From Gilvimarinus sp. DA14 (GTDB taxonomy: Bacteria; Pseudomonadota; Gammaproteobacteria; Pseudomonadales; Cellvibrionaceae): 64,000 bases of DNA. Positions 1,487 through 24,838 of the stretch are shown piece after piece; the first letter of the stretch is position 1; each line of letters starts with the position of its first letter. The notes under the pieces are model-generated. The model was not told the DNA's origin. It worked only from the letters and a program-made list of their open reading frames with translations, and did no database searches. The stretch covers positions 2,148,501 through 2,212,500 of the forward strand of contig NZ_CP100350.1 of NCBI RefSeq assembly GCF_024204685.1. The letters are read 5' to 3'. A program made the translations under genes and the position numbers.

Positions 1487-1509
1487 GACTCTAATACTTG
1501 CCTGCATAA

Positions 1510-4194: not shown

Positions 4195-5685
4195 TTACAT
4201 ATAGTGCTTTCTGACAAACTCGCCGTGCTTTGGCAGCGTAGAAACCCGCTTTGCCACGGCGTTGCGAATATGCGTAAGTCGCATGTGCAGTTGCTCATCT
4301 GAGATAGCATCGGCCACCGGGTGATAGCCCTCAGGCTCGAAGCCTTGCCCCAGCAGCACAGCAAACCAGCTGGTTTCACGAAACATATCGTATCGGTTCA
4401 CCAACACCTCGCCGCGCTCTTTGAACACTTCGAGCTTTTCCACCAGGCTGGCAGGCAACTCCATGTTTTTCACATAGCGCCAGAAGGGGCTGTCATCGCG
4501 CTCTGTTATAGCATAGTGAGCAATCAGAAAGTCTTTGACCTCATCGTACTCTTGATACATTTCACGATTAAAGCGCTCTACCAATGACGGTTGGATTTTA
4601 CTGCGGGGAAACATTGCCAGGATTTTATGTACCGCGCGCTGAATCAAATGAATGCTAGTAGATTCTAGCGGCTCTAAAAACCCGCTCGATAAGCCTACCG
4701 CGATGCAGTTATTCACCCAGGATTTTTTTCTCACCCCGGTGGTAAAGCGAAGTGTTCTAGGCTCAGCCAGAGCCTCGCCGTCGAGGTTATTCAACAACAC
4801 CTCGCGAGCCTGCTCATCACTTGTATATTTACTGCAGTAAACATAGCCGTTACCCACACGGTGCTGCAGGGGAATACGCCACTGCCAACCTGCATCGTGC
4901 GCGATTGAACGCGTATAAGGAAGAAGCTCACCCGTTGATGCAGAAGGTACGGCTACTGCACTATCCACAGGTAACCAATGGCTCCAATCCTCATAACCGG
5001 TCTGGTACACCTGCTCAATCAACATCCCTCTAAAGCCGCTGCAATCGATAAACAGGTCGCCTTCAACGACTCGCCCGTTCTCCAGCAGCAGCTTTTCAAT
5101 ATCGCCTGTGTGCGGGTTTTGTGTCACCTCGCTCACCTTGCCCTCAATACGCGAAACACCGCGAGCCTCGGCGAACTCGCGCAAAAACTTTGCGTACAAG
5201 CCGGCATCAAAGTGATAGGCGTAGTTCACATCGGGCAGCATTTTGGGGCCGGCTTCATTCTCGACCCAGGCAAACTTATTCTCACGCGCCGCACAGGCCT
5301 CGGCATTAAAGCTGAGAAAATCTGTGGCGCCACCGTTTTTTCTCCAGCGCAGCCAATAGTGCATAAAGCTGATACCGTCCATGTCAGAACCCAACATGCC
5401 AAACGGATGAAAGTAGGAAACGCCCTGCTTACGCCAATTGGCAAATTCGATTCCCAACTTAAAAGTGGCTTTAGTGGCGCGAACAAAATCCGCCTCGCTG
5501 ATTCCAAGCGCATTGTTGTAGATCATGATAGGCGGAATTGTCGCCTCACCAACACCAACGGTGCCTATCGCTTCCGACTCAACCAGGGTGATAGACACTG
5601 GCCCGCCCGCCAGAGATTTAGCCAGGGCTGCAGCGCTCATCCAACCGGCCGTGCCGCCACCGAGAATCACTACACGATTAATCAT
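4195..5685 (-). CDS. tryptophan-halogenase-family flavoprotein, module 1 slot C
   Basis: The protein belongs to the flavin-dependent tryptophan halogenase family (PrnA-like, Trp_halogenase), whose members use FADH2 and O2 to make HOCl or HOBr and halogenate an aromatic substrate. All key motifs are present: FAD-binding GGGTAGW (9-15), the catalytic lysine in TFKLGIEF (K76), WQWRIP (267-272), and the catalytic glutamate in LEST (E341). It is 496 aa from the ATG at 5685, which has a GAGGGG ribosome site, and starts 10 bases after the slot B gene. The segment LIEQ...TGYEDW groups it with the slot C protein of module 2. No flavin reductase gene is nearby. The substrate is unknown and need not be free tryptophan. 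Confidence 0.92.
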   Translation of the reverse strand: MINRVVILGGGTAGWMSAAALAKSLAGGPVSITLVESEAIGTVGVGEATIPPIMIYNNALGISEADFVRATKATFKLGIEFANWRKQGVSYFHPFGMLGSDMDGISFMHYWLRWRKNGGATDFLSFNAEACAARENKFAWVENEAGPKMLPDVNYAYHFDAGLYAKFLREFAEARGVSRIEGKVSEVTQNPHTGDIEKLLLENGRVVEGDLFIDCSGFRGMLIEQVYQTGYEDWSHWLPVDSAVAVPSASTGELLPYTRSIAHDAGWQWRIPLQHRVGNGYVYCSKYTSDEQAREVLLNNLDGEALAEPRTLRFTTGVRKKSWVNNCIAVGLSSGFLEPLESTSIHLIQRAVHKILAMFPRSKIQPSLVERFNREMYQEYDEVKDFLIAHYAITERDDSPFWRYVKNMELPASLVEKLEVFKERGEVLVNRYDMFRETSWFAVLLGQGFEPEGYHPVADAISDEQLHMRLTHIRNAVAKRVSTLPKHGEFVRKHYM

Positions 5686-5695
5686 AAAATCCCCT

Positions 5696-7195
5696 CTAAA
5701 ACATTGCACCCGTATAGTTATCGTTATTTTCTAAGCCTAAGTGTACCGATAAGTCTGGCATTTGTTCCGCCTCACGGGCGACAAAGCTCAGCATTTTTTG
5801 GAACTCTTTGATTTGTTCCTGTTCATCCAGGTTATTCACTTGCAAGTCATAGGACTGAGGCAAGAGGCCATTACCACACAAGAGCGCATACCAATCCTCC
5901 TCTTGAAAGGTTTCATCTTCATACATGCAAAGCGCCCCTCGCGCCTGAAACAAGTTTAATTTTTGTTGTAGATGAGCGCTTGGCGACAATGACTTGAATG
6001 AATGCCACAAAGTATCGTTATCGCGACCATTCAGTAAATAATGCGCCTGCTGAAAATCCACTATTCGATCTATATGCGAATTCACTTTTTCGATGTATTT
6101 TTTTTGCTCGGCCGTATAGCTGTCGGCAACCGGGAACAACGCCATCAGGTAGGACAACGTCAAATGTAATACATGTAGTTCCACACCATTAACATCGTCT
6201 AAGCAGGCGGCCGAACCACCTACAGCCACACAGTTTTTCAGCCAGGGAGATCGCCTCCGACCCGCCACTTTATTCTTTACCACACCTTCTCTCATTGGCA
6301 TAGCGCACAAACCTTGCAGCGTTTTTGCCACCTGGTCGGGCACGGACTGTTGCGGATTATAGTTGAACCTCAGCGCGGTCTTATCCGCAAGCGGATAGAC
6401 GCCCAGCCACCCACGCTCATTGGCAAGGCAATGGTTGCATGACGGTATGGGAGTTATCTTGTCTGCCAGAGCGTGTACACTCGCCGTTAGTGGAAACCTA
6501 TCCTGAAGCGACTCATAAGCGTCTCCTCCAAGTTTGGAGATCAGCTCTCCTGCCGGGCCACAGGCATCGACAAAGAGATCCGCCGTAACGGTTTGCCCGT
6601 CTTCCAATAGGATATGCCGAATTGCACCAGCTTCAACCTCTACTTTGGCAATAGGCCCCTCATACCTTTTCACACCACTGGCTATGGTGTCAGAAGCGAT
6701 ACGCTTAAGATACGCTAGCGCCGGAATATTAAAGCTGTAGGATGCATGACTGAATGCTGACGCCTGCTCATTGAGCAGTACGAATTTATTTCTTTTGGCT
6801 GCAGCCACCGCCAGAGAAAACTCGTGATATGGAACCTGCAAGCCTTTTTTTCTGCCTCGAATCCAATACTGAACAAAATCTATATCTTTAATGGGCAAGC
6901 CGTGGGTATCGAAAACCTGATAGTAATCACCGTCTGATGACCAGCCGGAAAATCTATTGCCAATGGAATTAGCTACCCCCAAATTAGCAATCAAGTCCGA
7001 CTCAGAAAGCCCCAGCAATTTGTGCAGCCCTCGCACAGAAGGGATACTGGGGTATACATCCTGCGGACCAACCTCGGAGGGTAGCTCGACAATCTGCACT
7101 GTTAATAATGAATTCTCACCCAGAAACCTCTGTAGCACCCGCGCCGTTATCCACGCATCTGCATCCCGGCCTACCACGCAAATACTTTTAACCAT
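5696..7195 (-). CDS. degenerate tryptophan-halogenase paralogue, module 1 slot B
   Basis: The protein aligns over its whole length with the neighbouring halogenases (for example ADLFVDACG and NCVAVGGSA) but has lost the catalytic features. GGGTAGW is GRDADAW (9-15). The catalytic Lys position is Ser77 (ANSIGNRF). WxWxIP reads GWLGVYP. The catalytic Glu position is Asn in LDDVNG. It is 499 aa from the ATG at 7195, which overlaps the upstream stop by 8 nt (ATGGTTAA). The reading frame is intact over its full length, so it looks selected rather than decaying. An inactive partner, scaffold or binding protein is more likely than a halogenase, but this is inference. Confidence 0.85.
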   Translation of the reverse strand: MVKSICVVGRDADAWITARVLQRFLGENSLLTVQIVELPSEVGPQDVYPSIPSVRGLHKLLGLSESDLIANLGVANSIGNRFSGWSSDGDYYQVFDTHGLPIKDIDFVQYWIRGRKKGLQVPYHEFSLAVAAAKRNKFVLLNEQASAFSHASYSFNIPALAYLKRIASDTIASGVKRYEGPIAKVEVEAGAIRHILLEDGQTVTADLFVDACGPAGELISKLGGDAYESLQDRFPLTASVHALADKITPIPSCNHCLANERGWLGVYPLADKTALRFNYNPQQSVPDQVAKTLQGLCAMPMREGVVKNKVAGRRRSPWLKNCVAVGGSAACLDDVNGVELHVLHLTLSYLMALFPVADSYTAEQKKYIEKVNSHIDRIVDFQQAHYLLNGRDNDTLWHSFKSLSPSAHLQQKLNLFQARGALCMYEDETFQEEDWYALLCGNGLLPQSYDLQVNNLDEQEQIKEFQKMLSFVAREAEQMPDLSVHLGLENNDNYTGAMF

Positions 7196-8708
7196 GGGCT
7201 CTCTCACTTAGCGTAGATTTACAGTAATCGTTAACAAACTCAGTGTGATCGCCCAGCCCCATCACACTCGACTCAATCGAGCTGCTAATCGACTCAACTT
7301 TGTCGGTTAAACGAGCCACGGGGTGATTGTCACAAACACGCTCGTAGGTGCTTGCTTGTCCCACCTGCCCCATCAGTACCGCCAGCCAGCTCGCGGGTGA
7401 AAACAAACCATATTTGTATTGATCGATATAACCGCGACTGGAATACAACTCAATCTTTTCAGTCAAAGAGTCAGGAATTTCCATTGTGCGGCAGTTATCC
7501 CAAAATGGCATACCCCGCCGCTCATTGGCTGCGTAATGCAAAATTAAAAAATCCCGGATTCGCTCATACTCCAAATTGATACGGCGGTTAAATTCATCAG
7601 TCAGAGCTGGCGAGGGTACTTTCCCCGGGAACAATTTCAATAGCTGCTGAATGGAAACCTGTATCAGATAAATGCTAGTAGACTCCAAAGGTTCCAGAAA
7701 GCCGCCGGAAAGCCCCACGGCGATGCAGTTAGCCTTCCAGTTCACCTTGCGCCGCCCGGCTTCAAACCTTAACAACGCGGCATCCGTAACCGGTGCACTC
7801 GGCATATCTGCGTATAAACTGTGTACCGCCTCGTCATCACTCAGGTACTGACTGGAATACACATAGCCATTGCCTGTGCGATGCTGCAACGGAATGCGCC
7901 ACTGCCAACCTGCGACCTTGGCCATAGACCTAGTATAAGGAGGCAGATTTTGCATCGGCGCACTTGGTGCGGTAACCGCTCTATCGCATTGCAACCAGTG
8001 AGCCCACGACTCAAAGCCTACACCCAACTGTTGCCCTAAAAGCAAAGATCGGAAACCTGAACAATCGATGAAATAATCGGCCGTTATCTGTTGGCCGGAC
8101 TCGAGCACAATTGTATCTATGCCCTCGCCTGCGTCTTTCCCCAGAACCTGAGCAACCCGCCCTTCTATACGTTGCACGCCCTTCGCGACTGACATCTCCT
8201 TTAAGTAATTGGCATACAGCCCCGCATCAAAATGATAAGCATACGAATACGTAGAGGCGATGGCGCTGGCATCACTGGCGGGAAAAGCAAACCTCCCGTG
8301 TCTGGCTGCCTGAATGGAATAGCTGTAATGCTCTAGGGGTTGGGCCGATCCCTGTTGGCGCACTTTCAACCAGTACTGGTGAAAATCCATGCCCTGTAAA
8401 CTTTTACCGTAAGCGCCGAAGGGGTGCATATAAGTTTCACCAGGCACTTTCCAGCCTTCAAACTCGATACCCAATTTAAAGGTGGCGCCGGTCTTTTGCA
8501 TCATATCCGGCTCGATAATACCCAACTTGTCATTAAACTCTTTGATCGCGGGAATGGTCGCCTCACCCACGCCGACCGTACCGATGGATTCCGATTCCAC
8601 CAGAGTAACGTCACAGACTCTGTCGGTAACCACATGGGACAGGGCTGCGGCAGTCATCCAACCAGCCGTGCCACCGCCAACAATGACTATTTTTATTCTC
8701 TCTTGCAT
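7188..8708 (-). CDS. tryptophan-halogenase-family flavoprotein, module 1 slot A
   Basis: An intact family member of 506 aa. GGGTAGW is at 11-17, catalytic Lys77 in TFKLGIEF, WQWRIP at about 267-272, and catalytic Glu341 in EPLEST. The SLLLGQ.LGV.FESW segment and FLILHY near the C-terminus match the slot A protein of module 2 and differ from both slot C proteins. I prefer the ATG at 8708 (GAGG about 12 bases upstream) over an in-frame TTG at 8726. It lies downstream of the TBDR gene with a strong hairpin between, so expression probably needs read-through or its own promoter. Its stop overlaps the start of slot B by 8 nt. Confidence 0.92.
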   Translation of the reverse strand: MQERIKIVIVGGGTAGWMTAAALSHVVTDRVCDVTLVESESIGTVGVGEATIPAIKEFNDKLGIIEPDMMQKTGATFKLGIEFEGWKVPGETYMHPFGAYGKSLQGMDFHQYWLKVRQQGSAQPLEHYSYSIQAARHGRFAFPASDASAIASTYSYAYHFDAGLYANYLKEMSVAKGVQRIEGRVAQVLGKDAGEGIDTIVLESGQQITADYFIDCSGFRSLLLGQQLGVGFESWAHWLQCDRAVTAPSAPMQNLPPYTRSMAKVAGWQWRIPLQHRTGNGYVYSSQYLSDDEAVHSLYADMPSAPVTDAALLRFEAGRRKVNWKANCIAVGLSGGFLEPLESTSIYLIQVSIQQLLKLFPGKVPSPALTDEFNRRINLEYERIRDFLILHYAANERRGMPFWDNCRTMEIPDSLTEKIELYSSRGYIDQYKYGLFSPASWLAVLMGQVGQASTYERVCDNHPVARLTDKVESISSSIESSVMGLGDHTEFVNDYCKSTLSERAHG

Positions 8709-8730
8709 AACAATATTCAGCCTCAAATAA

Positions 8731-8762
8731 AAAATGCGCTGCTATAAATAGCAGCGCATTTT
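8731..8762 (-). terminator. hairpin between TBDR 1 and slot A halogenase
   Basis: Perfect 15-bp arms AAAATGCGCTGCTAT / ATAGCAGCGCATTTT flank a 2-base centre. A T-run follows on the minus strand. It should end or attenuate transcription from the TBDR gene before the halogenases. Confidence 0.8.
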
Positions 8763-8784
8763 CGGGTTGGCTTAGCGTTACGAT

Positions 8785-11700
8785 TTACTGGAACACAAAG
8801 CGCAAACCAACGGTGAAGCGTCGATCCTGCTGATGCCAGCCAGTGGGCAAAAGCAGTCCGCCGTCGTCTACGTCGGTAACCTGCTGCCTAAGAACAGTCT
8901 CCTCGTTCAACAGATTACTACCCTGGAAGGTAATATCAAGGTTATCCGTCAAGCTGTATTTGATCGAACCATCCAGCTGACCATAGGCCTCGTTCCACAC
9001 CGGGTAGGCAACACAACAATCGATGGCCGTCACCATGTACTCATCGCGCCAGCTGTAGGCCAACCGCGCCTGCCAGTCGCCATATTCGTACATACCAATC
9101 AGGTTAAAGGCGTGATCACTCAATCCCTCTAAGCGGTCAGTGCCAATGGCATCCGGCGCCTGATCGGTGATGGTCGAACCCTCACCACCGGTATTTCTAA
9201 CACCGGTGTTGGTAATGCCGTTGTTATCAATAAAGGTGTAGTTAGCCTGCATACCCAAACCATTAAAAGGCTCTGGCAGGAAATCGAAGAACTGCTGATA
9301 GGCAATTTCAAAACCACTGATGTCTGCACCCTCACCATTGAGTGGGCCGCGAACTTCGGCGGTGCGAGTCACACCATTGTTTTCAAACTCGCGAAAGTAG
9401 GTACCAAACTGGATATAGTCGTCAAACTGCTTATAAAACACCGTACCAGTCAATGAACCCACATCCGAGAAGTAGTACTCCAACGCCAAGTCGTACTGAG
9501 TCGCTTCTATCGGCTTAAGGAAGGGGTTCTGTGCATCGCCGCCATAATAGACGTTGGCCCCAACAATCTCGCCATCAGCATTTTTCTCCCATAAAAGATC
9601 ATTGGGATCATTTGCATCAGGTAAACTTTGACCAACGCTGACATAGTTACGCAAGTTACCGATATCCGGGCGCGACATGGCCTTAGAGGCGGCAAAGCGC
9701 AGCAATAGCTCTTCGGTCAGGTCAAACTTGATGTTAAAGCTCGGCAAAATATTGGTGTGCTTGGCTTCGGTAGTGCTGGTTTCGTTACCGCCTCCCATAA
9801 AGGCCACATCGTCTTCCGACAAATAACAGCCAACGGAACCCGGCACCGGAGCTGGGCCACCGCCCTGCGCAAATTGCGGCTCACAGCCGACATTGGTTCG
9901 GGTGGGATCGGGCTCGCGCACATAAACCGGGTTGCCAAACTCGTCCACTTCACCAGTATCAATCGCGGTAAAGAAATATTCATCCCCCAGGCGTGGGTAG
10001 ACAATACCGCCGGTGCTGGTATCAGTGGTATCCACATAGCGAACCCCTAAGTTACCCGAAAAGGGGATGCCAAAAAGTTCGGCGTCTGAGCCGCCGAAAT
10101 TAAACTGCACGTAAAAAGCTTCGGTAGTCTCGGTAATATCGACCAGCTCCGCCGGGGTATAGCAGGTGCCTGGAATTTCTTCGGCCCGGTCCCCCATATT
10201 CGAGCAAATAGGATCCCAACCGGTACCACCGGTAAAGCCGAGCGCGGCAGCGCCAAAGCTATTGGCCATACGTTCACGATCCTGCAACAGCTCCATGTCG
10301 GCGAATACAAACTGATTCGGGCTGATATCGTGATAGCTGGAAGTGCCGAATTCGCGAACTTCGTAGTAATCCTCCGGGTAGCCGGTAAAGCCTGGTTGTG
10401 CGCCCTCACCATTTGCCGGATCATGCTGGTCCAGGTTGTAGTATGGTGCCTGCCCTCCCGTCCAAGTATTAGCAACGTTCTGCCAGTTATAGCCGCTCCA
10501 GCGCACTTGTTGGTCGCGCTCAGCCCAGCGCACGCCGGTTTTAATAGATTCTAACCAGCCGTTGTCGATATCAAACTCAAAATCGGCCTTGGCCGCCAAC
10601 TGCTCGCCCTCACTTTGTTCCAAGTGGTCCATAATAAAGTGGGTGCGATAATTGTTGGGGTTGGCCCACAACCCAGGCGACATATTAACGTTAGTTGGCT
10701 CGTGCAGAGTTAGCGATGGATGCCCGCCACTTAAATCCAGCTCCGCATTGGAGTAGGTGGCAAAGTTCATCGAGATATCGTAGTTGGTAACTTCCGACTG
10801 AACATACTGAACATCAAAGTTCGAGCGGATACGGTCTGTGATTGACCATTTCAGATTTAACGAAAAGTCTTCGGTGACATTTTCGTTGTTGTTGGAGCGG
10901 GTTTCAGCTGTGGTGTCTACGCCACGGGTAGAGGGTGAGCAACCATTGCCGTCCCAACCATTATCGTTATTGTCATAACAAGGCACGATAAGTGGTTCGC
11001 CAGCGGCATTAGTAGCAAAGCCCTTCGCCTCTTCGCTACTACCGCCCCACCAACCGACACCAGTATTGAACGTCCCGCTTTGGAATAGGCCCTGCTCATC
11101 AAATATAAAATCATCGGTGCCGGGTGCAGGCTGAGGCCTCGTATTATCCCGCGGCTCACCTTCAAACGGCGGCACTTCATAATAAACACTCTGCTCGTAA
11201 GACAAATCGGCAGGTGCAACTCCCACTACATACTCTTCCCAGGCGTTATCGTACTCCGAGCGGTTGTACTGTGAGGTGAACACCACTGTTTCCGACGGGT
11301 TTTGATACTGGAACGCCAACGCCGTGCCCAAACGATCACGGTTGTAAATATTTTCACGGAAATTAACGGTGGCGGGAATGTAACGCAATGTATCTTCACC
11401 GTAGACATCGCGGAAACGGTTCATTCGGTAGAGCTGCATACCTTCGGTTTGCGTCACCACCTCGGAATAAGCGACGTTACCCAGAAAGCCAAACTCACCT
11501 GCACTGGTCTCCCAGCGATTGCTGTACAGGCCAGACACTTCAGGCGTGACCTCATCAGACAGAGTGCCATAGTTGGCATTTAAGGTCAGCGCGATCATCT
11601 CGCCGTCTTGATCGAAAGGTACGCGGGTACGCATATTTACGGTACCGGCGATACCGCCCTCAATCAGCTCTGCCATTTGGTTTTTATAGGTGTCCACGCC

Positions 11701-12171
11701 GGACATGAGTTCGGGGGAAACATCACCCCAGCTCAAACCGCGCGAGGAGTTGGCACTGAAAGAATCGCGGCCATTAAACTCGGTGCGCACCTGATTCAAG
11801 CCGCGCACCACCACACCCGATGGCTCGGCGGAAAAGTGGGCAGTATCGTCGGAGGCGGCGAACCGGTTAACGGTAATACCAGCCACGCGCTGCAAAGCTT
11901 CGGCTACGGATTTATCCGGGAAGGAACCCAGATCTTTAGCGGTGATGGAGTCAACCACGGTGGCGGCGTTGCGCTTAATGTCCTGGGCGGTTTCCAAGGA
12001 CTGGCGCATGCCTTTAACCACCACCTCTTCGAGCACTAGCTCTTCATCGCTGGCGGCGTTGTCTGCCTCAGAGTTCTGAGCAGAGGCAACCACACTGGTT
12101 AATACCAATAGGGATGACGCAAGGGAAACAATCCCGGCTTTGCGACCGGGTATACGGGTACGAGTAGTCAT
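8785..12171 (-). CDS. TonB-dependent outer-membrane receptor, module 1
   Basis: This is a large TBDR (1128 aa) of the Xanthomonas/Caulobacter type, an energised outer-membrane importer. A signal peptide ending near SVVASAQ is followed by a TonB-box-like region (LEEVVVKG). The plug has the family motifs FPDKSVAEALQR, VVRGL, EFNGRDSF and ELMSGVDTYKN, then comes a long beta barrel ending in aromatic FVFQ. An open frame extends to 12414, but the ATG at 12171 directly precedes the signal peptide and has an AGAGAT ribosome site, so the extension is probably not translated. It resembles TBDR 2 throughout the plug. The ligand is unknown; association with xylan genes suggests a glycan but does not show it. 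Confidence 0.95.
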   Translation of the reverse strand: MTTRTRIPGRKAGIVSLASSLLVLTSVVASAQNSEADNAASDEELVLEEVVVKGMRQSLETAQDIKRNAATVVDSITAKDLGSFPDKSVAEALQRVAGITVNRFAASDDTAHFSAEPSGVVVRGLNQVRTEFNGRDSFSANSSRGLSWGDVSPELMSGVDTYKNQMAELIEGGIAGTVNMRTRVPFDQDGEMIALTLNANYGTLSDEVTPEVSGLYSNRWETSAGEFGFLGNVAYSEVVTQTEGMQLYRMNRFRDVYGEDTLRYIPATVNFRENIYNRDRLGTALAFQYQNPSETVVFTSQYNRSEYDNAWEEYVVGVAPADLSYEQSVYYEVPPFEGEPRDNTRPQPAPGTDDFIFDEQGLFQSGTFNTGVGWWGGSSEEAKGFATNAAGEPLIVPCYDNNDNGWDGNGCSPSTRGVDTTAETRSNNNENVTEDFSLNLKWSITDRIRSNFDVQYVQSEVTNYDISMNFATYSNAELDLSGGHPSLTLHEPTNVNMSPGLWANPNNYRTHFIMDHLEQSEGEQLAAKADFEFDIDNGWLESIKTGVRWAERDQQVRWSGYNWQNVANTWTGGQAPYYNLDQHDPANGEGAQPGFTGYPEDYYEVREFGTSSYHDISPNQFVFADMELLQDRERMANSFGAAALGFTGGTGWDPICSNMGDRAEEIPGTCYTPAELVDITETTEAFYVQFNFGGSDAELFGIPFSGNLGVRYVDTTDTSTGGIVYPRLGDEYFFTAIDTGEVDEFGNPVYVREPDPTRTNVGCEPQFAQGGGPAPVPGSVGCYLSEDDVAFMGGGNETSTTEAKHTNILPSFNIKFDLTEELLLRFAASKAMSRPDIGNLRNYVSVGQSLPDANDPNDLLWEKNADGEIVGANVYYGGDAQNPFLKPIEATQYDLALEYYFSDVGSLTGTVFYKQFDDYIQFGTYFREFENNGVTRTAEVRGPLNGEGADISGFEIAYQQFFDFLPEPFNGLGMQANYTFIDNNGITNTGVRNTGGEGSTITDQAPDAIGTDRLEGLSDHAFNLIGMYEYGDWQARLAYSWRDEYMVTAIDCCVAYPVWNEAYGQLDGSIKYSLTDNLDITFQGSNLLNEETVLRQQVTDVDDGGLLLPTGWHQQDRRFTVGLRFVFQ

Positions 12172-12261
12172 AGCATGATCTCTTTTATATTTATTAAACT
12201 CATGAGCCTCAGTAGCTAATGGAAAAGCCTCTTTACGTACCGAGTTAACTTGGGCAAGAAA

Positions 12262-12275
12262 TGTTAGCGATAACG
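12262..12275. promoter_or_regulatory. LacI-type operator candidate 1
   Basis: TGTTAGCGATAACG is close to the palindrome TGTTAACGTTAACA recognised by many LacI-family sugar regulators. It lies about 90 bp upstream of the TBDR 1 ATG. Confidence 0.4.
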
Positions 12276-12466
12276 TAAATGCGGCATAACCCATTGCCTC
12301 AAAAATCATGGTCCATATCAGGCTAGTAGTCAAACAGATATGGAGATTTTGGCCGCCAAAAGTAACCGATTTCAACAATGTGTCCAAAAGGGTAACACTT
12401 GCTTCACAAAACAAGGCTTAACGCTGTGTATCCAGTGACCGGAGGCAAGCTAATGGACGAAAAACA

Positions 12467-12480
12467 CGCCAACGTTAACG
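12467..12480. promoter_or_regulatory. LacI-type operator candidate 2
   Basis: CGCCAACGTTAACG (reverse CGTTAACGTTGGCG) keeps the TTAACGTT core, about 10 of 14 positions of the LacI-type consensus. It is weaker than the other two. Confidence 0.3.
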
Positions 12481-12565
12481 ACACACCGGGGCAAGTGGGA
12501 GTACAAAATAAAGGGTAGATGGACGACTGGATTAATAGAGAAATTGGACGTGAAATAAAGCCCAA

Positions 12566-12579
12566 TGTTAACGCTAACA
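12566..12579. promoter_or_regulatory. LacI-type operator candidate 3
   Basis: TGTTAACGCTAACA differs from the perfect palindrome TGTTAACGTTAACA at one position. Its centre is 99 bp from candidate 2, which would allow looping. No LacI-family regulator gene is in the window. Confidence 0.45.
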
Positions 12580-12710
12580 GATGGTCCCGCAAAAACAATA
12601 TGACCTATTCAGATTTAAAAAACCCAATCCAGATCGGCCATTTCAGTCAATCACTTTAAGGCTTAGCATTTTCTGAGGAAGTGATGCCAAGGATCGTGGC
12701 GCCAATTAAG

Positions 12711-12779
12711 ATATACGGACGGCTACTTGCACAGCGGGTGAACGACTTGTGGCTAATGTGCAAGAGGCTCACCGTATAT
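12711..12779. repeat. concentric double inverted repeat
   Basis: ATATACGG (12711-12718) pairs with CCGTATAT (12772-12779), and CTTGCACA (12726-12733) pairs with TGTGCAAG (12757-12764). Both pairs share the same centre. They are separated by symmetric 7-nt unpaired stretches and enclose a 23-nt loop. No T-run follows on the minus strand, so it is not a classic terminator. Confidence 0.6.
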
Positions 12780-12954
12780 TGAAAAAAGTGGTATTAGAGC
12801 CGCCGCAGCGCAACGAGCTCTCACCACTCTTACACAATCCTGACTGGTTATAGCACCCATTAATGGAGATAAAAACGCTGACACTCGGTGGGGCGTCAAT
12901 GCGATTAAAGTAACCAGCGTATAGTTGTTAAGCGATGCATGCGAAAACTCCAGG

Positions 12955-14466
12955 TCACATATCTTTTGCAGCGCAATGCTGCGCAATAAAGTCCTCGTGT
13001 AGAGGCATGTACTCCGCCGAGCGTTTAATCACCTCGCGAATACTCGCCAAACGTCGTTCAATTTCCTGGGGCGGCAAGGTATCCACAATCGGATGGTAGG
13101 CACGCGCACTTAACCCCTGGCCATGCATTACCTCCAGCCAACTTAAATCGTTAAACAACTCCTCATTGGTGCGAAAGATTCGGCCGTTTTTCTGATACTG
13201 ATCAATCTTCTGCTGCAAAGTCGCGGGAATGGGCATAGTGCGGCAGTAGTTCCAGAATTCGGAATCATCCCGGCGGGTAATACAATAATGGGCAATTAAG
13301 AAATCGCGAATGCGCTCGTATTCAAAATCCACCTGACGGTTGTACTCGTCGATGTCTTCCTGATCGAAATAGCGATTAGGAAACAGACTCATTAGTTTGG
13401 CAATGCCTGACTGCACCAAATGGATACTGGTCGATTCCAAAGGCTCCATAAAACCACCGGCCAAGCCCAAGGCAACACAGTTTTTATTCCAGAGGCGTTT
13501 ACGCTTGCCAGTGGTAAAGCGCAATAACTTGGGGTCCGCCAACGGCTCGCCGTCAAGGTTATCCAGCAATATTTGCGTCGCCTGGTCATCGCTCATAAAT
13601 TGGCTGCAATACACATGACCGTTACCAGTGCGGTGTTGGAGCGGTATGCGCCATTGCCAACCGGCGCTGTGCGCGGTTGAGCGAGTATAGGGGGTGGGGT
13701 CAGAGACTTTAGCGCAGGGCACGGCAACGGCGCGGTCGCAAGGCAGCCATTGGCTCCAGTCCTCGTAGCCTGTGTGCAAAGCTTGCTCGATCAGCAATCC
13801 CTTAAAGCCGGAGCAATCGATAAAGAAGTCGGCCTCCAGGGTGTCCCCATCTTCCAGCGTGACCGCTTGGATAAAACCGTCGTCGGGATTAACGGCAACA
13901 TCGGTAATCTTTCCCTCGCGGCGGGTTACGCCTCTTTGCATGGCAAACTCGCGCAAGTAGATGGCATACAGCGTCGCATCAAAGTGGAAGGCGTAGGCAA
14001 TATCCGACAGCGGTGAATTACCCGCATCTACTGGCCGCATAAAGCGCCCCTGCTCCGCAGCAAGACAGTTAAGGGTATACTGATCAATATCCGGCGCTTT
14101 GCCCGCCTGAAACATTTTTAGCCAATAGTGATAAAACTGCACGCCTTCCATATCTTTACCCACGCCGCCAAAGGCGTGCAGATATTTCTCGCCAATATGC
14201 CCCCAGTTAACAAACTGAATCCCCAATTTAAAAGTACCCTGAGTTTTGCGTACAAACTCATTTTCATCCAAACCCAGCATCTGGTTAAACAGCTGGATCT
14301 GCGGAATCGTCGCCTCACCCACACCAACGGTCCCAATAGCATCGGATTCAATCAGCTGAATGTCGCAGTACTGATTTTTTAACACCTTGGATAGAGCCGC
14401 AGCTGCCATCCAGCCGGCAGTGCCTCCGCCCACAATCAATATTTTTCGGATACGGTTGTCCGTCAT
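12955..14466 (-). CDS. tryptophan-halogenase-family flavoprotein, module 2 slot C
   Basis: An intact family member of 503 aa. GGGTAGW is at 13-19, catalytic Lys80 in [14 protein letters not shown] at about 270-275, and catalytic Glu344 in [14 protein letters not shown]...TGYEDW and FLIAHY match the slot C protein of module 1, not the slot A proteins, which is the evidence for module duplication. It begins 22 bases after the slot B gene. The ATG at 14466 has a GAGG about 13 bases upstream, a rather long spacing. It is the last gene of module 2, and I see no clear terminator after it. Confidence 0.92.
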
Positions 14467-14488
14467 GGTCTTATTAAAACCTCGTCAC

Positions 14489-15946
14489 TTAGCCCCTGGC
14501 GGGATCTTTAAGTACAGCCTCCAAGGCGGGCATGGAATCGGCCTCGCGCTGCAGAGTCTGGTAAATGGTGTGATGCTTGCGCGCCAGTTGCGCCGCGTCG
14601 GTATCGGCCAAGGTAAGGTCGCAGGCACCCGCGTGCCACCCCAACCCCAACGCCAATGCGAGCCAGGTCTCATCCCCCAGCACTTCCTCATCCCGGCGCC
14701 AAAGCCTTCCCAGGCGCGTAAAAACCTCCAGGCGCCACTTTATATCGGCGGGAAGCTCTTCTTGTTCGCACTCGTACCCGACAGCGTGCACCCAGTGTAG
14801 CTCGTTAATTTTTTGGTACAACAAACCGCGGCGACGGTTGTACTCAGCGCGCAGCTGCAACTGATTACCCGCGCCCGGCAGCAGCTCGAGCCAGAGCAGC
14901 AAACAGCGCGACGCCCAGTGCCACTGAGACAACACCAGCTCACCCGGGTTGGCATCGGCGCCACCCAGCGCCAAACAGTTGTGACACCAGCCTTGAGCTC
15001 GTGCGCCTTCGGTTTCCTGCCAGCGAACAAACTTCTTACCTTGCTCACGCAGTGAGACCTCAAGACTAGCCAGCGCCGCCGTATCGCAGAGCCATGCATC
15101 CACTATGGCTTTATCCTGCAAACCCACCCGGCGTTGCCAGCCGCCGGATATTCGCACAAGTTCGGAGCGTGGTTGTAGCGGAGCTTCTACCGACTCGATA
15201 TAGGTAAGCCGGTGGGGCCACAACGGCCGACTCTGAGATTGAAACTCAATGCCCAAGGTTTGTCCGAGAAGCCGAGACGACTCGCCACTGGCGTCGATAA
15301 AAAAGTCGGCCTCCAGCCGCACGTCGTTATCCAGCGATAGCGCTTTTATACCCTGCTGGGAATCCCCGTGCACTTGCAGCGAAGCGGAGCTTCGACAATC
15401 CACGCCCAAGCTCTGGGCACGCGCAGCAATCGCGCCAATGAGCGCAGTGCGCTCTAAATGCAAACCGTATTTAAGTGTAGATCTGGCCGAGCGCGGATCT
15501 TTCACCGGAAAAGCAAAACGCCCCTGGGCTGCTGCACGGGTAGCCAAAAAGTGTTCGTTAAAGGCAAGTTGATCAGATCCGCAGAAGCGTTTAAAGAACT
15601 CCTGTTCAAAGGGTGCCGGAGAAGGCTGGATGCCATGGCGGCCGTAAGGCAGAAAAAACCTAGCCGATTGCCGCTGGTACTCGGCGCCCAGGCTGTAAAT
15701 TCCGCCGCACCGCTGCACAAGCTCGGCCTCAGAAAAGCCCACCATTTCCAGCCAGCGACCCAAAGCAGGATCGAGAACTTCGGCCCGAGCAACATTTGCA
15801 GCATTAGCATTTTCGGCCGCTTGCACCCAAGTAATACGGGTCGCAAAAGGCCGCAACATTTTCGCCAGAGTTAGCGCCGTAGCAGCGGCTACCAACCCGT
15901 TCCCGAGCACGACAATATGCTGCAAGGGGGCAGGAATATTAGTCAC
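14489..15946 (-). CDS. degenerate tryptophan-halogenase paralogue, module 2 slot B
   Basis: This halogenase-family protein (485 aa) has its active-site motifs erased. The FAD motif is LGNGLVAAA (14-22). The Lys position is Ser85 (IYSLGAEY). WxWxIP reads WQRRVG. The Glu position is Val by alignment (NCLALGGADAN segment). Retained family features include DFFIDASG and a conserved C-terminal helical part. The start is taken as GTG at 15946: GGAGG lies 5 bases upstream and it overlaps the slot A stop by 8 nt (GTGACTAA). A TTG at 16006 is open but has no such support. It has the same slot, gene overlap and Lys-to-Ser change as the slot B protein of module 1. Confidence 0.83.
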   Translation of the reverse strand: MTNIPAPLQHIVVLGNGLVAAATALTLAKMLRPFATRITWVQAAENANAANVARAEVLDPALGRWLEMVGFSEAELVQRCGGIYSLGAEYQRQSARFFLPYGRHGIQPSPAPFEQEFFKRFCGSDQLAFNEHFLATRAAAQGRFAFPVKDPRSARSTLKYGLHLERTALIGAIAARAQSLGVDCRSSASLQVHGDSQQGIKALSLDNDVRLEADFFIDASGESSRLLGQTLGIEFQSQSRPLWPHRLTYIESVEAPLQPRSELVRISGGWQRRVGLQDKAIVDAWLCDTAALASLEVSLREQGKKFVRWQETEGARAQGWCHNCLALGGADANPGELVLSQWHWASRCLLLWLELLPGAGNQLQLRAEYNRRRGLLYQKINELHWVHAVGYECEQEELPADIKWRLEVFTRLGRLWRRDEEVLGDETWLALALGLGWHAGACDLTLADTDAAQLARKHHTIYQTLQREADSMPALEAVLKDPARG

Positions 15947-17471
15947 GAGCGCCTCCGTATAGATCCATAGTGGCTGGCGGCTCGCGCTTAAGACCACCGC
16001 GAGCAATCACCTCGGCATGCTCGGGTGCACTTTCAGCCATTTTTTGCAGCTGCGAGGCTAAACCTTGTAACGTGCGGCTGACTTGAGCGGCTGGCACAGA
16101 CGCCGCCCGACTGTCCCAGCTCGAGGGCAGCAAACCTTGCCCCAAATACACCGCTAGCCAGCTGGGCTCGGCAAATAGCCCCTGATCATAAGATTGAACG
16201 ACGGCAGATTCGCGAAACAATTCGATTTTTTCTTGCAAGCTTATCGGTATATCCATAGTCGCGCAGTAGCGCCAAAAATCGGAATCGTCACGACGATTAA
16301 GATGATAGTGCAAGATTAAAAAATCCCTTACCCTGCGGTACTCCATGCTCATCCAGCGGTTAAACGCCTCGCGACTTAAGTTCTCGTCGGTACAGGGAAA
16401 GAACTCCAGCAATTTCACAATCGCCATTTGAATCAGATAAATACTGGTGGATTCCAAAGGTTCCAGAAAACCACTGGACAAGCCAATAGCGATGCAATTT
16501 TTTTCCCAGCTTCGGGAACGGCAGCCTGCCTCGAAACGGATAAAGTTGGGATCGGAAACCGGCACACTGTTGAGTGCCCCCTGAAGCTGGGCGCAGGCTT
16601 CGTCATCACTGAGGCTTTCACTGCAATAAACCTGGCCATTACCCGTGCGATGCTGCAGAGGAATACACCACTGCCAACCACTAGCGGTTGCGCTAGAGCG
16701 GGTATAAGACGGCAGGGGCGTTAAAGGATCGGATGCCTGAGCGACCGCGCGGTCGCAGGGCAACCAATGTCGCCAGCTTTCAAAGGGAACGCCCAGGGTT
16801 TGGCCCAACAACAGCGAGCGAAAGCCCGAGCAATCGATAAACAAATCGCCATCAATAACCTCTTCCGACTCCAGTATCAGCGCCTGCACTCGGCCGTCAT
16901 CCGCAGAGGTTTTCACGCGGTCAACTTTGCCTTCGTATCGCTCCACCCGGCGCGCTTCGGCGTAACGACGTAAAAAAGATGCGTATGCCGTCGCATCCAG
17001 ATGGTAGGCATAGCCATAACCGAGACCCGCCTCATCGGGCGGCGGGGCGAAGCGATTGCCTTGGGCTAGCTGCGCCGATAGAGAAAAATCATCCAACGAA
17101 AATTTAGCACCGTTTGCTCGCGCCGATAAAAAATGGTGATGAAAACCGACGCCGCCCAAATCGGCTCCAAAAGCGCTGAATGGATGCATATATCGGCTGG
17201 CCGAATCGCCCCAACCGGTAAACTCGATCGCTAATTTATAAGTCGCCCCAGTCGTCTGCATAAAATCGCGCTCGGAAATACCCAGCAATTGATTAAAATA
17301 ACGTATATGGGGAATGGTTGCCTCGCCAACGCCAACAGTGCCAATTTGCTGCGACTCTACTAACGTGACCGCGCATTCGTCGGGCAGCAAGTGTGCGAGC
17401 GCCGCCGCGCTCATCCACCCTGCTGTGCCGCCACCGACAATGACAATGTTTTTAGCGAGCGGGCTCGCCAT
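15939..17471 (-). CDS. tryptophan-halogenase-family flavoprotein, module 2 slot A
   Basis: An intact family member of 510 aa. GGGTAGW is at 13-19, catalytic Lys79 in ATYKLAIEF, WQWCIP at about 265-270, and catalytic Glu339 in EPLEST. SLLLGQ.LGV.FESW and FLILHY pair it with slot A of module 1. The ATG at 17471 has GGAG 7 bases upstream, so it is preferred over an upstream GTG at 17498. A terminator-like hairpin separates it from TBDR 2. The product and substrate are unknown. Related TBDR-linked halogenases from Xanthomonas and Brevundimonas-like bacteria brominate indoles in vitro. Confidence 0.92.
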   Translation of the reverse strand: MASPLAKNIVIVGGGTAGWMSAAALAHLLPDECAVTLVESQQIGTVGVGEATIPHIRYFNQLLGISERDFMQTTGATYKLAIEFTGWGDSASRYMHPFSAFGADLGGVGFHHHFLSARANGAKFSLDDFSLSAQLAQGNRFAPPPDEAGLGYGYAYHLDATAYASFLRRYAEARRVERYEGKVDRVKTSADDGRVQALILESEEVIDGDLFIDCSGFRSLLLGQTLGVPFESWRHWLPCDRAVAQASDPLTPLPSYTRSSATASGWQWCIPLQHRTGNGQVYCSESLSDDEACAQLQGALNSVPVSDPNFIRFEAGCRSRSWEKNCIAIGLSSGFLEPLESTSIYLIQMAIVKLLEFFPCTDENLSREAFNRWMSMEYRRVRDFLILHYHLNRRDDSDFWRYCATMDIPISLQEKIELFRESAVVQSYDQGLFAEPSWLAVYLGQGLLPSSWDSRAASVPAAQVSRTLQGLASQLQKMAESAPEHAEVIARGGLKREPPATMDLYGGARD

Positions 17472-17554
17472 AGCGTTTCTCCGCTTATTGTTTGACACAG
17501 TATTATTCTATCAGCCCAGCAGACCGACAAACCCAATAGCGAATTAATTTGCTG

Positions 17555-17590
17555 CAAAAAAAAGGCGCAACCCGGAAGTTGCGCCTTTTT
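17555..17590 (-). terminator. hairpin between TBDR 2 and slot A halogenase
   Basis: GGCGCAAC (17564-17571) and GTTGCGCC (17578-17585) form a stem with loop CCGGAA. A-rich and T-rich flanks lie on both sides, giving a long U-tract on the minus strand. It sits at the same place as the hairpin in module 1. Confidence 0.8.
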
Positions 17591-17609
17591 TGTCTTCACT
17601 CAATCAGGC

Positions 17610-20600
17610 TTAGTAAACAACCTTTAAGGTCAAAGCAAGGCGACGGTCGTTGATAAACCACGAACGGCCAGTCTCGCGACCATTTTCGTCCAATGTCATC
17701 AATGTTTTCGTCTGAGTGTCGAGCAGGTTAGTGGCCTGCAAACCCAAGGTGACATAGTCATTCATTGTGTATTGAACAGAGCCATCCAAGAAGCCTGCAT
17801 CGTCGTTCCAGATCGGCTGACCACTGATAACATCGCGCGTGGTTACCAGATACTTAGAACGCCAGTTATATGCCAACCGCGCTGACCAATCGTGCTTCTC
17901 GTACATCAGCACCAGGTTAGCGGTATGTTCCGATTGACCGCGCAAAGGCAAACCTTCGAGCAAGCTCAGGTCCACAGTTTCCAGGCCCGGTTGTGGGGTA
18001 TCTGGACCGCTGTCATCGAGATCGTCTTCGGTAGTGGCGTCGGCATCACTGGTAAAGTTGGGCACGCCTTCTGAATCAATAAAGGTGTAGTTAGCCTGAA
18101 TACCAAAGCCGTCGAAAGGTTCGGGCAGCATATCGTAGAATTGCTGATAGGCGATCTCGATACCTTGCATCTTACCTTCTTCACCGTTGCGGGTGGTGGT
18201 GAAGTCAACAGTCTGGCTAACCCCTGTGGTTGGGTTGGTGAAAGTCCGCGGCACCGCACCTTCAATAAAGAAATTACTTAAGTCTTTATAAAAGATACTG
18301 GTAGTCAGCGAGCCCACCGGAGCAAAGTACCACTCCAAAGAAGCGTCGTACTGAATCGACTCCATTGGCTGCAGCGCGGGGTTACCACCACTACCGGTCC
18401 ACACCACATCTTCAACCGATAGAATATTCACGCCATCATCAACCGGGCCGGGCTCGACAATTTCACTGGTGTCGGTTTCACGGGTTACCGTCAATTGACG
18501 TGCGCCCAGTACTGCCTGATTACGCACTTCAGACATGTCAGGCATAGCAATGGCTTTAGCCACAGCAAAGCGACCAATCAAGTCGTCGGTGAGTTCCAGC
18601 TTTAAGTTAAAACTGGGGAGCACTCCATCCCAAGAGGCGCTGTCTTCCTGTAGCTGATCCGCATCATTACCAAAGCCCTGCTCGGTCTCTGATAACCAGT
18701 TATTGGCGTCGCGAGAGTAGGCCATTAACTGATTAACTTGATCCAGCCAATCCTGCTCGCTGGGGAACAAGCCCGGATCAAACGGGCCAACCTCTTCCTC
18801 GGCCCACTTACGAATAGCGCCGCTATCGGACAGGTCGGTAGGGGCCCCGGCGGGATAGGCTTGACCAATCATGTCGGGGTACTGAATAGAACCCAGAGCG
18901 TCGCGCTCCAACTCTACATAGCGCAGGCCAATGTTACCCGAGAAGCGCAGTGCAAAATCGTCCGAGCCGAAATCTAAGCGAACATAGGCGGCTTTGTTGG
19001 TTTCGGTAGTATCGTAAATTTCCGCTTCCGAGAAGTAGGTGCCGTTTTGCGCTTCGGGGCGCAGGTTAGCTGGCTCCCAAATACCTTCGGCGCCCGGGTT
19101 GTTTTGCGGTACTGTGCGACCGTCGATGACGTCTTTGAGGAATTCTTCCTTGGGAAACAGGAATCCATCACCCGGAATATTGGCCACGCCACCGCGGTGG
19201 AAATCAGACCAATCGATATACTCGTAAGCATCACTCAACTCTTCGGTTTCAGACAGCCACATGGCGCCTTCACCACCGTTGGGAGCCCACTCGGCACCAA
19301 TGCTACCCCAGTTGTAGGGCGTGGTACGCACAACCTGATTGCGATCAGCGAAGCGCACACCGGCTTTTACCGAACGCAGCAGGTGCGTATCGTCAAAGTA
19401 GTGAGTCGCATCAAAACGAACCGCCTTAGATTCACCCTCAGAACGCTCGTAGTGATCCATGGCCGAGCGCCACCAGTAGCTGTCGGGGTCCTGAAAGTAG
19501 TTGGCGTCGCCTTGCGGGTCATTAGAAAAGCCCGGAAACAGAGGCTGATCTTCTTCACCTAGCTCAGGGTAATACTCAGAATTAACCCGGTAATAGTCAG
19601 GGTTCGCATCACGGCGACCATCCCAGGGCTCGATAACATTGAGCCAAGGCTTGTCTCCGTCACCTTGAATAGCGAACTGCTGCAAGGCGTAGAAGCCGTT
19701 GGCAATCTGCAGGTCGTCGTCTTCGGTGGTTGCTTCTACCCACTGGAAGTCGCCCTCAAACTCCCAAGAGTCGCTGGGCATCCACTTAATATTAAAGCTC
19801 AAGTCATCTACGATGGTGTGAGTATCTTTAAAGCGCGTGTCTGCTTGATACTTCTGACCAAAGTAATCGTTTTGAGTCACGTAATCATCGGGAGCATCAC
19901 CTTCGCCAGCCCAGCCGCGAGGCACGCGACCTTCACCGCCGCGCCAGCCACCGCCGTCAACAATGTAACCCTCCTGGAAGATACCCATATCATCCCAGCC
20001 AAACTCGGTACCAGGATAGGGACGAGCGCGACGGGTTTCGCTCACCGAACCATCATCATTTTCGTCGCCGTAACCACCTTGATATTTAATGGCGTTCTCT
20101 TTCCAGCTTAAACGCGCATCGGAGCGAATAAACTCAGCGGTCGCTTCCCACTCATCGTTAGGGCTGGCCCACTGGAAGGATGTGGCTAAACCTTTACGCA
20201 CACGATCGTCTTCTTTGGTGAAGAAGTTTGAGCCGTTGGTCATCCACACCTGGTTGTTTTCATCGGCAACACTGGAAGGTGCACCCAAAGTGTCGGCGTT
20301 GTATTTAACAAAGGCGTCACTCTGGATACCGTTAGATTCGCCGATCAATTCCGAGTAAGAGGCATTAATCAAAAACCCAAACTCACCGGCGGACTCGGTA
20401 TCCCAGCGGTTACTGTACAAACCCGACACAGTAGGTGAAGCCTCTTCGGCCATATCGCCGTAGGAAACATCGCCGGTAAAGGCGATCATTTGCCCATCCT
20501 GATCAAACGGCTTACGAGTTTTAAGACTGACCGTACCGCCAATACCACCTTCAATCATATCGGCAGTTTGGTTTTTGTATAGATCCACACCGGACATCAG

Positions 20601-21041
20601 CTCGGGCGGAACATCCTGAAAGTTAAGACCACGACCCGAGTTGGCAGTAAAAGAATCGCGACCGTTAAATTCACTTCGCGTTGCGCTCATACCCCGGATA
20701 ACGGCGCCACTACCTTCAACCCCGAAGTGATCGGGATCCTCAGGCGCAGCAAAGCGCTCGATCGATACACCCGGCATGCGTTGCATTGCTTCAAGCACAC
20801 TGCGATCGGGTAATGAGCCAATATCTTCCGCAGAAATAGCGTCTACGAAGGTATCTGCATCGCGCTTAATATCCTGCGCGTTTTGCAGGTTCTGACGCGT
20901 TCCGCTGACCACAATTTCTTCTAACAGCATTTCGTCAGAGGCTTCTTGTGCAACGGTGGGCGAACCAATTGCCACAACACACATGGCAAGCAAGGATTTT
21001 TTGAATGAAACTACTTTATTCGTGTTTTGGCGATAAACCAT
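17610..21041 (-). CDS. TonB-dependent outer-membrane receptor, module 2
   Basis: A TBDR of 1143 aa, homologous to TBDR 1 across plug and barrel. The signal peptide ends near PTVAQ and is followed by a TonB-box-like LEEIVVSG. Plug motifs are LPDRSVLEAMQR, AVIRGM, EFNGRDSF and ELMSGVDLYKN. The barrel ends LALTLKVVY. The ATG at 21041 has a GGGG ribosome site. It belongs to the Xanthomonas/Caulobacter TBDR group often found in carbohydrate-utilisation loci. A lipoprotein gene lies upstream on the same strand, a likely partner. Clear divergence between the two receptors suggests the module duplication is old or that they recognise different ligands. Confidence 0.95.
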   Translation of the reverse strand: MVYRQNTNKVVSFKKSLLAMCVVAIGSPTVAQEASDEMLLEEIVVSGTRQNLQNAQDIKRDADTFVDAISAEDIGSLPDRSVLEAMQRMPGVSIERFAAPEDPDHFGVEGSGAVIRGMSATRSEFNGRDSFTANSGRGLNFQDVPPELMSGVDLYKNQTADMIEGGIGGTVSLKTRKPFDQDGQMIAFTGDVSYGDMAEEASPTVSGLYSNRWDTESAGEFGFLINASYSELIGESNGIQSDAFVKYNADTLGAPSSVADENNQVWMTNGSNFFTKEDDRVRKGLATSFQWASPNDEWEATAEFIRSDARLSWKENAIKYQGGYGDENDDGSVSETRRARPYPGTEFGWDDMGIFQEGYIVDGGGWRGGEGRVPRGWAGEGDAPDDYVTQNDYFGQKYQADTRFKDTHTIVDDLSFNIKWMPSDSWEFEGDFQWVEATTEDDDLQIANGFYALQQFAIQGDGDKPWLNVIEPWDGRRDANPDYYRVNSEYYPELGEEDQPLFPGFSNDPQGDANYFQDPDSYWWRSAMDHYERSEGESKAVRFDATHYFDDTHLLRSVKAGVRFADRNQVVRTTPYNWGSIGAEWAPNGGEGAMWLSETEELSDAYEYIDWSDFHRGGVANIPGDGFLFPKEEFLKDVIDGRTVPQNNPGAEGIWEPANLRPEAQNGTYFSEAEIYDTTETNKAAYVRLDFGSDDFALRFSGNIGLRYVELERDALGSIQYPDMIGQAYPAGAPTDLSDSGAIRKWAEEEVGPFDPGLFPSEQDWLDQVNQLMAYSRDANNWLSETEQGFGNDADQLQEDSASWDGVLPSFNLKLELTDDLIGRFAVAKAIAMPDMSEVRNQAVLGARQLTVTRETDTSEIVEPGPVDDGVNILSVEDVVWTGSGGNPALQPMESIQYDASLEWYFAPVGSLTTSIFYKDLSNFFIEGAVPRTFTNPTTGVSQTVDFTTTRNGEEGKMQGIEIAYQQFYDMLPEPFDGFGIQANYTFIDSEGVPNFTSDADATTEDDLDDSGPDTPQPGLETVDLSLLEGLPLRGQSEHTANLVLMYEKHDWSARLAYNWRSKYLVTTRDVISGQPIWNDDAGFLDGSVQYTMNDYVTLGLQATNLLDTQTKTLMTLDENGRETGRSWFINDRRLALTLKVVY

Positions 21042-23503: not shown

Positions 23504-24838
23504 TTAACGAATATAACGATTGATAATATTTTCGTACAACTCTTGCTGGCCACTGACCTGGGCCGGTTCGCCACCGGCGTTGCCGATAGCTGCCAGCGCT
23601 TCCAAACTCAACTCGCCCGCTTCAAACTTGGCGCCATCACCCGAATCGAAAGTGGCGTAACGCTCTTTGCGCATAGCTTCGATAGGTGAATTTTGCAAAA
23701 TGTCATCGGCAATCACCAACGCGCGCGCAAACACATCCATGCCGCCAATGTGACCGTGGAAGGTATCTACCAAGTCGGTCGAGTTACGACGACGCTTAGC
23801 ATCGAAGTTAACACCGCCACCGGCCCAGCCGCCAGCGCGCAGTACCACCAGCATCATTTCAACCGTTTCGTTGATGTTGTAGGGGAACTGGTCGGTATCC
23901 CACTGGTTTTGGTAGTCACCGCGGTTAGCGTCAATAGAACCCAGCATGCCCGCGTTAGCCGCCACTTGCATTTCGTGGTCCATGGTATGGCTGGCCAAAG
24001 TGGCGTGATTAGTTTCAATGTTCAGTTTAAAGTCTTTATCTAAGCCGTGATGACGCAAAAAGCCAATAACGGTTTCGCTGTCGAAGTCGTATTGGTGCTT
24101 GGACGGCTCCATCGGCTTGGGCTCGATCAGGAAGCTGCCCTTAAAGCCGTTGGCACGGCCGTAGTCACGCGCCATGGTCAGGAAACGCGCCATGTGCTCT
24201 TGCTCGCGACCAATGTCGGAGTTCAACAGACTCATGTAGCCTTCGCGGCCACCCCAGAATACATAGTTCTCACCACCCAGAGCGATAGTCGCATCGATAG
24301 CGTCTTTTAACTGCGCACCGGCGTAAGCCACCACATTGAAATCTGGGTTGGTAGAGGCGCCATTCATAAAGCGCGGGTTGGTAAACAGGTTAGAAGTGCC
24401 CCAAAGTACTTTCATGCCTGAAGCGGCCTGCTTTTCTTTGGCCCACTCAACCCACTGGAACAAACGCTCGCTAAATTCTTTGCGCGAGCAATCGCCCTCT
24501 TCCACCACATCTACATCGTGAAAGCAGTAATAAGGTGTGCCCACTTTGGTGAAAAATTCAAAGGCGGCATCCAGCTTCATACGCGCGCGAGTTTCGGCAT
24601 CTTTACCCTCGTTCCAAGGAAAGATAAACGGACCAGGGCCGAAGGGATCATGACCGGCGCCGCAGAAAGTGTGCCAGTAACAAGTGGCAAAGCGCAGATG
24701 CTCCTTCATGGTTTTGCCCGCTACTACGCGGTTCTCGTCGTACCATTTAAACGCCAGAGGGTTATCCGACTCCGGGCCCTCGTAGGCAATTTTGCCGACG
24801 CCTTTAAAATATTCTTTATCTCCGATGACTACACTCAT
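23504..24838 (-). CDS. xylA: xylose isomerase
   Basis: This enzyme converts D-xylose to D-xylulose in the cytoplasm, using divalent metals. The protein is 444 aa, the usual length for the class II (E. coli-like) enzyme. [13 protein letters not shown] contains the catalytic His/Asp pair, and [14 protein letters not shown] and the [18 protein letters not shown] region hold metal and substrate ligands. It is the last gene of a three-gene operon (xylB, epimerase, xylA) and is followed by a strong terminator. Confidence 0.97.

Follow-up and report, generated by a model that had tools for sequence, protein, structure and literature searches.

Wherever the DNA around it could be read, a catalytically dead paralogue of the flavin-dependent halogenases, here called B, stands straight after one kind of intact enzyme of the same family, A, which suggests that B serves its partner as a working subunit; the most that our data allow us to state is that A and B form a single functional unit. 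The pair occurs twice in the window (the whole stretch analysed, 64,000 nucleotides from Gilvimarinus sp. DA14), each time inside a block that begins with a TonB-dependent receptor (TBDR) and ends with a second intact halogenase, C. In all the regions read, no B was found without an intact A-type enzyme directly before it, and what is new here, as far as the sequences tell, is this exclusive pairing of an intact with a dead halogenase.

Two modules of the same gene order

The sequence-only reading of this DNA had described two consecutive minus-strand blocks with identical gene order, and that order, TBDR, halogenase A, degenerate halogenase B, halogenase C, is indeed present in both. Module 1 comprises T1 (17610-21041), A1 (15939-17498), B1 (14489-15946) and C1 (12955-14466), and module 2 comprises T2 (8785-12414, the true start of which may lie further inside), A2 (7188-8726), B2 (5696-7195) and C2 (4195-5709, the true start of which may lie slightly inside), all on the minus strand. 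T1, which has Pfam plug and barrel domains, and T2 score 637.8 and 603.9 bits against NCBIfam TIGR01782 (TonB-Xanth-Caul), the cut-off of which is 310. All six enzymes match PF04820 (cut-off 21 bits): A1, A2, C1 and C2 at 577, 594, 681 and 634 bits, B1 and B2 at 150 and 245 bits. The four proteins of slots A and C all carry GxGxxG (as GGGTAGW), TxKLxI, WxWxIP and EPLEST, with the catalytic Lys and Glu; in A1 the second and third of these motifs read TYKLAI and WQWCIP. The catalytic Lys is presumably K79 in PrnA numbering, and E346 of PrnA is named in a structure title. The slot-specific motifs quoted earlier are likewise in place, SLLLGQTLGVPFESW and SLLLGQQLGVGFESW together with FLILHY in slot A, and the MLIEQVYQTGYEDW form together with FLIAHY in slot C. 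Fx.Px.Sx.G is named as a motif of flavin-dependent halogenases in the part of PMC7336383 consulted.

Each module has an 8-bp overlap between A and B, the start codon of B (GTG in B1, ATG in B2) lying over the stop of A; these two starts were read from the sequence and not taken from the longest ORF, which at B1 uses an upstream TTG and extends to 16006. PHROG family 2928, a phage 'tryptophan halogenase', gives strong matches to A1 and C1 and a weak one to B1 (12955-17498), related enzymes occurring in phages.

Between the modules, identity is 52-54% for A1-A2, 51% for C1-C2, 35% for T1-T2 and 21% for B1-B2; A and C share 46-48.5%, and B1 and B2 are each slightly closer to A and C (23-28%) than to one another. 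In a tree of 96 proteins the sequences form clades by slot (support 100 for A, 100 for B and 78 for C, the C clade including five non-module sequences), and within a module A and C are not each other's closest relatives. Trees constrained to make A the sister of C within a window module are rejected (AU p 3e-10), as are those with two independent decays of B (AU p 1.3e-4, SH p 0.047), the constrained trees coming from a fast search; B has one origin (support 100). A and B each split into a module-1 type and a module-2 type, the latter including L090, a Sphingopyxis bin. The slot-wise clades and the rejected double decay together point to one ancestral block, in which B was already dead, as the source of both types. 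Because each type has relatives in other genera, a recent local tandem duplication is ruled out. The earlier claim that the whole module was duplicated, with large divergence, is thus borne out for duplication as a unit but not as a recent local event: on the sequence evidence, the module was duplicated long ago.

A survey of other genomes had been proposed, and the TBDR-A-B-C order proves to be conserved elsewhere. Our survey combined searches with B1 and B2 in 61 genomes of the family (49 of which have PF04820 matches), reading of the neighbourhoods, the window itself, and L090, which was reached by a search with A1; loci L071-L074 were reached via weaker B2-query matches to their A or C genes. 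It yielded 17 labelled modules; C is present in 14 and absent from three (L069, L070 and L078, the last also without an adjoining TBDR), and the B of L079/L080 is split by contig ends. Module-1 and module-2 types occur separately in other genera. At the same site within the genus, beside kinase and argH genes, genome G004 carries just module 1, G036 just module 2 and the window genome both; loss or replacement may lie behind the single-module states. In G054, the fourth genome of the genus searched, no B1 or B2 match was found at the thresholds used. The argH-like and hybrid sensor kinase-like genes (by eye) lie at 95-4148 of the window and are retained at this site in two genomes of the same genus.

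The window genome, a single contig of 3.96 Mb, holds 21 full-length PF04820 genes plus one distant match in two pieces, and 29 TBDRs above the TIGR01782 cut-off. Nineteen of the 21 lie in TBDR blocks, singly, paired, or interspersed with SapC and Cupin_8 genes, and the only A-B-C triads are the two window modules. A second kind of block recurs on this contig (G000:C1), TBDR followed by SapC and/or Cupin_8 and then by one or more PF04820 genes, at 107752-121082 (L024), 1483825-1491326 (L026) and 2099921-2105412 (L027), SapC and Cupin_8 being assigned by Pfam in the first two and by eye in the third.

The dead paralogue and its pairing with A

Each module has one catalytically dead paralogue, as had been noticed from the sequence: B1 and B2 match the PF04820 profile but lack the catalytic Lys and Glu. 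In B1, WxWxIP has also gone and GxGxxG is altered, and in B2 all four features are lost. Across loci, both catalytic residues are kept in 33/34 A, in 132/134 other intact enzymes and in 0/33 B (counts made before the last 15 regions were added), the exceptions among A and the others being truncated frames (that of A, in L074, is without its N-terminus as read). WxWxIP is kept in none of the 33 B and GxGxxG in six. Conservation among 17 aligned B is low, with three invariant columns (G, F and G), and B has diverged 2.6 to 3.1 times as much as A and C, so that parts of it may be unconstrained. In dN/dS analysis, the comparisons of A, B and C within the window had saturated synonymous sites; rough values come from T2 (0.02), T1 (0.03) and one B pair (0.26). 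The fold of B2 is predicted to be intact and BrvH-like, its AlphaFold2 model (pLDDT 91, pTM 0.91) matching BrvH, 9luq and Xcc4156 with TM scores of 0.89-0.93; for A1 the model is of lower confidence (pLDDT 77), and its best fold matches are BrvH-type structures as for B2.

We ran an A-only profile on 274 genomes of the class and 398 of the phylum, at most 5 (class) or 3 (phylum) candidates per genome being scored and those with E < 1e-200 or 1e-190 listed, limits under which weaker A relatives would be overlooked; every match listed was read, which gave 75 regions besides the earlier loci. These regions contain 111 intact halogenases and 16 B: B stands directly after 16 of the 111, and each of the 16 B is directly preceded by an intact halogenase. 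The 16 new pairs span 9 genera and 4 families, and none of 15 further matches added late to the regions has a B. B has open frames in the class of the window and also in a second class of its phylum, and the pair is retained where C is absent (L069, L070 and L078). Tree distances over 22 triads (0.63 for A-B given C, 0.65 for A-C given B and -0.25 for B-C given A) indicate that B follows A, not C. As with prozymes, the dead paralogue is always found with the enzyme within the regions read.

Some of the loci read depart from this layout. L073 contains a second A-B pair, five consecutive halogenase-family genes (A0-B0-A-B-C, 5678-13195) following one TBDR; this pair is discordant in the tree, with A0 beside A of L073 and B0 beside B of L072. 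In L142 a shortened B of 368 aa (7097-8203), possibly a natural minimal B, lies between A and two C-type genes, and in L143 and L145, which come from a different class of the phylum, the A-B blocks have their TBDR divergent on the opposite strand.

In an earlier FastTree, B followed 16/16 members of the A clade and 0/73 other enzymes. A was then redefined by position, as the enzyme directly before B, and the clade was tested in trees made without B sequences. In the best-likelihood tree of all 190 intact enzymes (the best of three compared, from an unfinished search and with no support value), the 34 that precede B, one of them at a contig end (L079), form one exclusive clade. FastTree recovers this exclusive clade with 201 proteins (support 0.905); with 22 more, 223 in all, the clade is broken, 9 of the 34 lying outside and only 7 of the 16 new A inside. 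A fast IQ-TREE search without constraint also breaks the clade and is rejected (AU p 0.026), and the fast tree constrained to the clade is not rejected (AU p 0.12). Recovery of the A clade as exclusive varies with the tree used.

B might instead have a task of its own, binding substrate or flavin or acting as a regulator, with only the operon in common with A. A fold that is kept (as predicted for B2) with both catalytic residues gone, and the low conservation seen across the 17 B, would suit such a role; yet one would expect to meet a free binder beside C-type enzymes as well, and in everything read B is directly after an A-type one, which leads us to regard a separate role as rather unlikely. 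An active B with some other chemistry would be in keeping with the intact fold predicted for B2 and with the GxGxxG that six of 33 retain, but the complete absence of Lys plus Glu and of WxWxIP, together with invariant columns that are only G, F and G and offer no alternative polar set, makes this improbable. That B is a decaying pseudogene carried by the operon, to which its high divergence and the shortened L142 copy might point, is highly improbable given frames that are open in two classes, a decay that is ancient and single, and a B for each A in the 75 regions.

Xylan genes, receptors and a working model

Directly upstream of T1 is a gene for a CBM15-domain protein (21323-23011, minus strand; Pfam CBM_15, 61.6 bits), a putative lipoprotein to judge from its N-terminal LSACGG. 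Beyond it, by Pfam, come a xylose isomerase-like protein (23504-24838, just above cut-off), an aldose epimerase (24905-25861) and an FGGY kinase (25865-27349), all on the minus strand, and, on the plus strand, an NrtR/AraR-like Nudix regulator (27619-28347) and a GH115 alpha-glucuronidase (28747-31629); the kinase could presumably be named a xylulokinase. A xylan locus thus adjoins the modules, in agreement with the sequence-only reading, which had the duplication, the dead paralogue and the xylan setting right and missed the link of B with A and the dispensability of C. A crude scan found no palindromic operator common to the upstream regions of T1, T2, the CBM15, regulator and GH115 genes and an enolase-family gene. 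A C-only locus, L148, also lies beside GH115 and enolase-family genes.

The joint reading that we favour, and hold to be fairly probable, is an import unit with an A-B heteromer, in which a dead, prozyme-like B serves A and C acts alone. The module would be an outer-membrane glycan-import unit, with a TIGR01782 TBDR, joined to a cytoplasmic set of flavin-dependent enzymes, here beside glucuronoxylan genes. A would be a flavin enzyme of the BrvH/Xcc4156 type, A and C being intact in the FAD motif, WxWxIP and both catalytic residues, and B would be its catalytically dead sister, working only with A. The overlapping A and B genes are most likely translationally coupled and their products most likely a heteromer, in which B would take one half of the usual halogenase homodimer; indeed, the part of PMC7336383 consulted notes a common crystal dimer for tryptophan halogenases, which makes a heterodimer a natural form for the pair. 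We infer that B binds A, and it may stabilise, activate or target A as prozymes do for trypanosomatid enzymes. The proteins begin directly with the FAD motif, which points to a cytoplasmic location, and family membership makes halogenation or hydroxylation/oxidation of an aromatic ring the probable chemistry. The substrate would be either the TBDR before export or an aromatic molecule arriving with the glycan.

The second of these substrates follows the view of the sequence-only reading, that outer-membrane import and aromatic halogenation or oxidation are functionally joined here; A and C would halogenate or oxidise a xylan-borne aromatic, for example a feruloyl or lignin fragment. Xylan genes adjoin here, and homologues of them (GH115, enolase-family, xylose isomerase-like or regulator) stand beside A-B modules in 8 of 32 loci including the window, the other seven being L067, L068, L074, L075, L077, L079 and L141. 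According to the available part of PMC7336383, indole derivatives are substrates of the nearest characterised relatives, and what BrvH and three Xanthomonas enzymes act on naturally is described as unknown. However, other, non-A PF04820 genes of the window genome and their TBDRs adjoin genes for other glycans (GH16-like and alpha-amylase-like, by eye), which argues against one plant aromatic as the common substrate of the family, and we take a xylan-borne substrate as a possibility that deserves weight without being likely.

Alternatively, the substrate could be the TBDR itself or another envelope protein, an aromatic side chain of which would be modified while the protein is still in the cytoplasm, ahead of export. 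The receptor is the constant partner across glycans, 19 of the 21 PF04820 genes in the window genome lying in TBDR blocks, and Cupin_8 genes adjoin some blocks. The 24 A-adjoining TBDRs fall inside one clade of 33 among 91 TBDRs, its other nine members being seven C-linked and two unclassed receptors. H105 together with W313 (T1 numbering) occurs in 22 of the 24, in 3 of the 7 in-clade receptors without A and in none of 58 others (a comparison that omitted the two unclassed in-clade receptors and has one unclassed among the 58); as a mark of A-linked receptors this is suggestive but confounded with phylogeny, and the A-linked TBDRs of L143 and L070 are without both residues. A plug Tyr, present in 86% of halogenase-linked vs 24% of unlinked TBDRs (35 linked and 17 unlinked, one ambiguous omitted), is not diagnostic. 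Among the 16 new pairs, the TBDR lies beside A in nine (two on the opposite strand) and elsewhere in the cluster in two, but in five no TBDR was found in the region read. QhpG, LodB and GoxB appear as weak NCBIfam matches below cut-off; these enzymes act on proteins, which makes the matches a lead but no evidence. In BrvH and Xcc4156 the site is open and a lysine is accessible to solvent (PMC7336383, in part), which would suit a protein substrate. Taken together, we think a receptor substrate unlikely, and more doubtful still is the fuller claim that A-B is an obligate heteromeric flavin enzyme whose dead halogenase is a targeting subunit and which modifies aromatic residues of its own TBDR before export. 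If such tailoring were true, it would give the orphan TBDR-linked halogenases a natural role, the post-translational tailoring of nutrient receptors.

Comparison with known systems

PrnA, RebH, Thal and PyrH share PF04820, the motifs and the fold with the enzymes described here and are more distant in sequence; they work as one active chain and belong to biosynthetic clusters, not TBDR loci. No halogenase prozyme was found among the papers listed in the literature covered, which lay mostly outside subscription papers, and the same literature gave nothing linking 'halogenase' with 'pseudoenzyme'. To our knowledge, B would be the first halogenase prozyme. Should the whole A clade depend on a dead partner, its real activity would escape assays run on A by itself.

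The best sequence matches of A1, C1 and B2 are BrvH, Xcc4156 and the Pseudoalteromonas L11 halogenase (PDB 6frl, 6y1w and 9luq), and in fold, too, the models of A1 and B2 match BrvH, Xcc4156 and 9luq best. BrvH has a second halogenase gene adjoining, 42.7% identical (PMC5945002, in part); unlike B here, no dead partner is mentioned in the available portions of the accounts of these three enzymes. The TBDR carbohydrate utilisation (CUT) loci of Xanthomonas likewise have a TBDR beside genes for plant glycans including xylan, as the consulted part of PMC1790865 describes, but the word 'halogenase' is absent from the main text of that paper, unlike the modules here. Prozymes belong to unrelated enzymes and organisms, and activation was measured there whereas for A-B we infer it: in trypanosomatids, as set out in the available parts of PMC3663545 and PMC5201418, a dead paralogue of deoxyhypusine synthase or of AdoMetDC activates the active enzyme.
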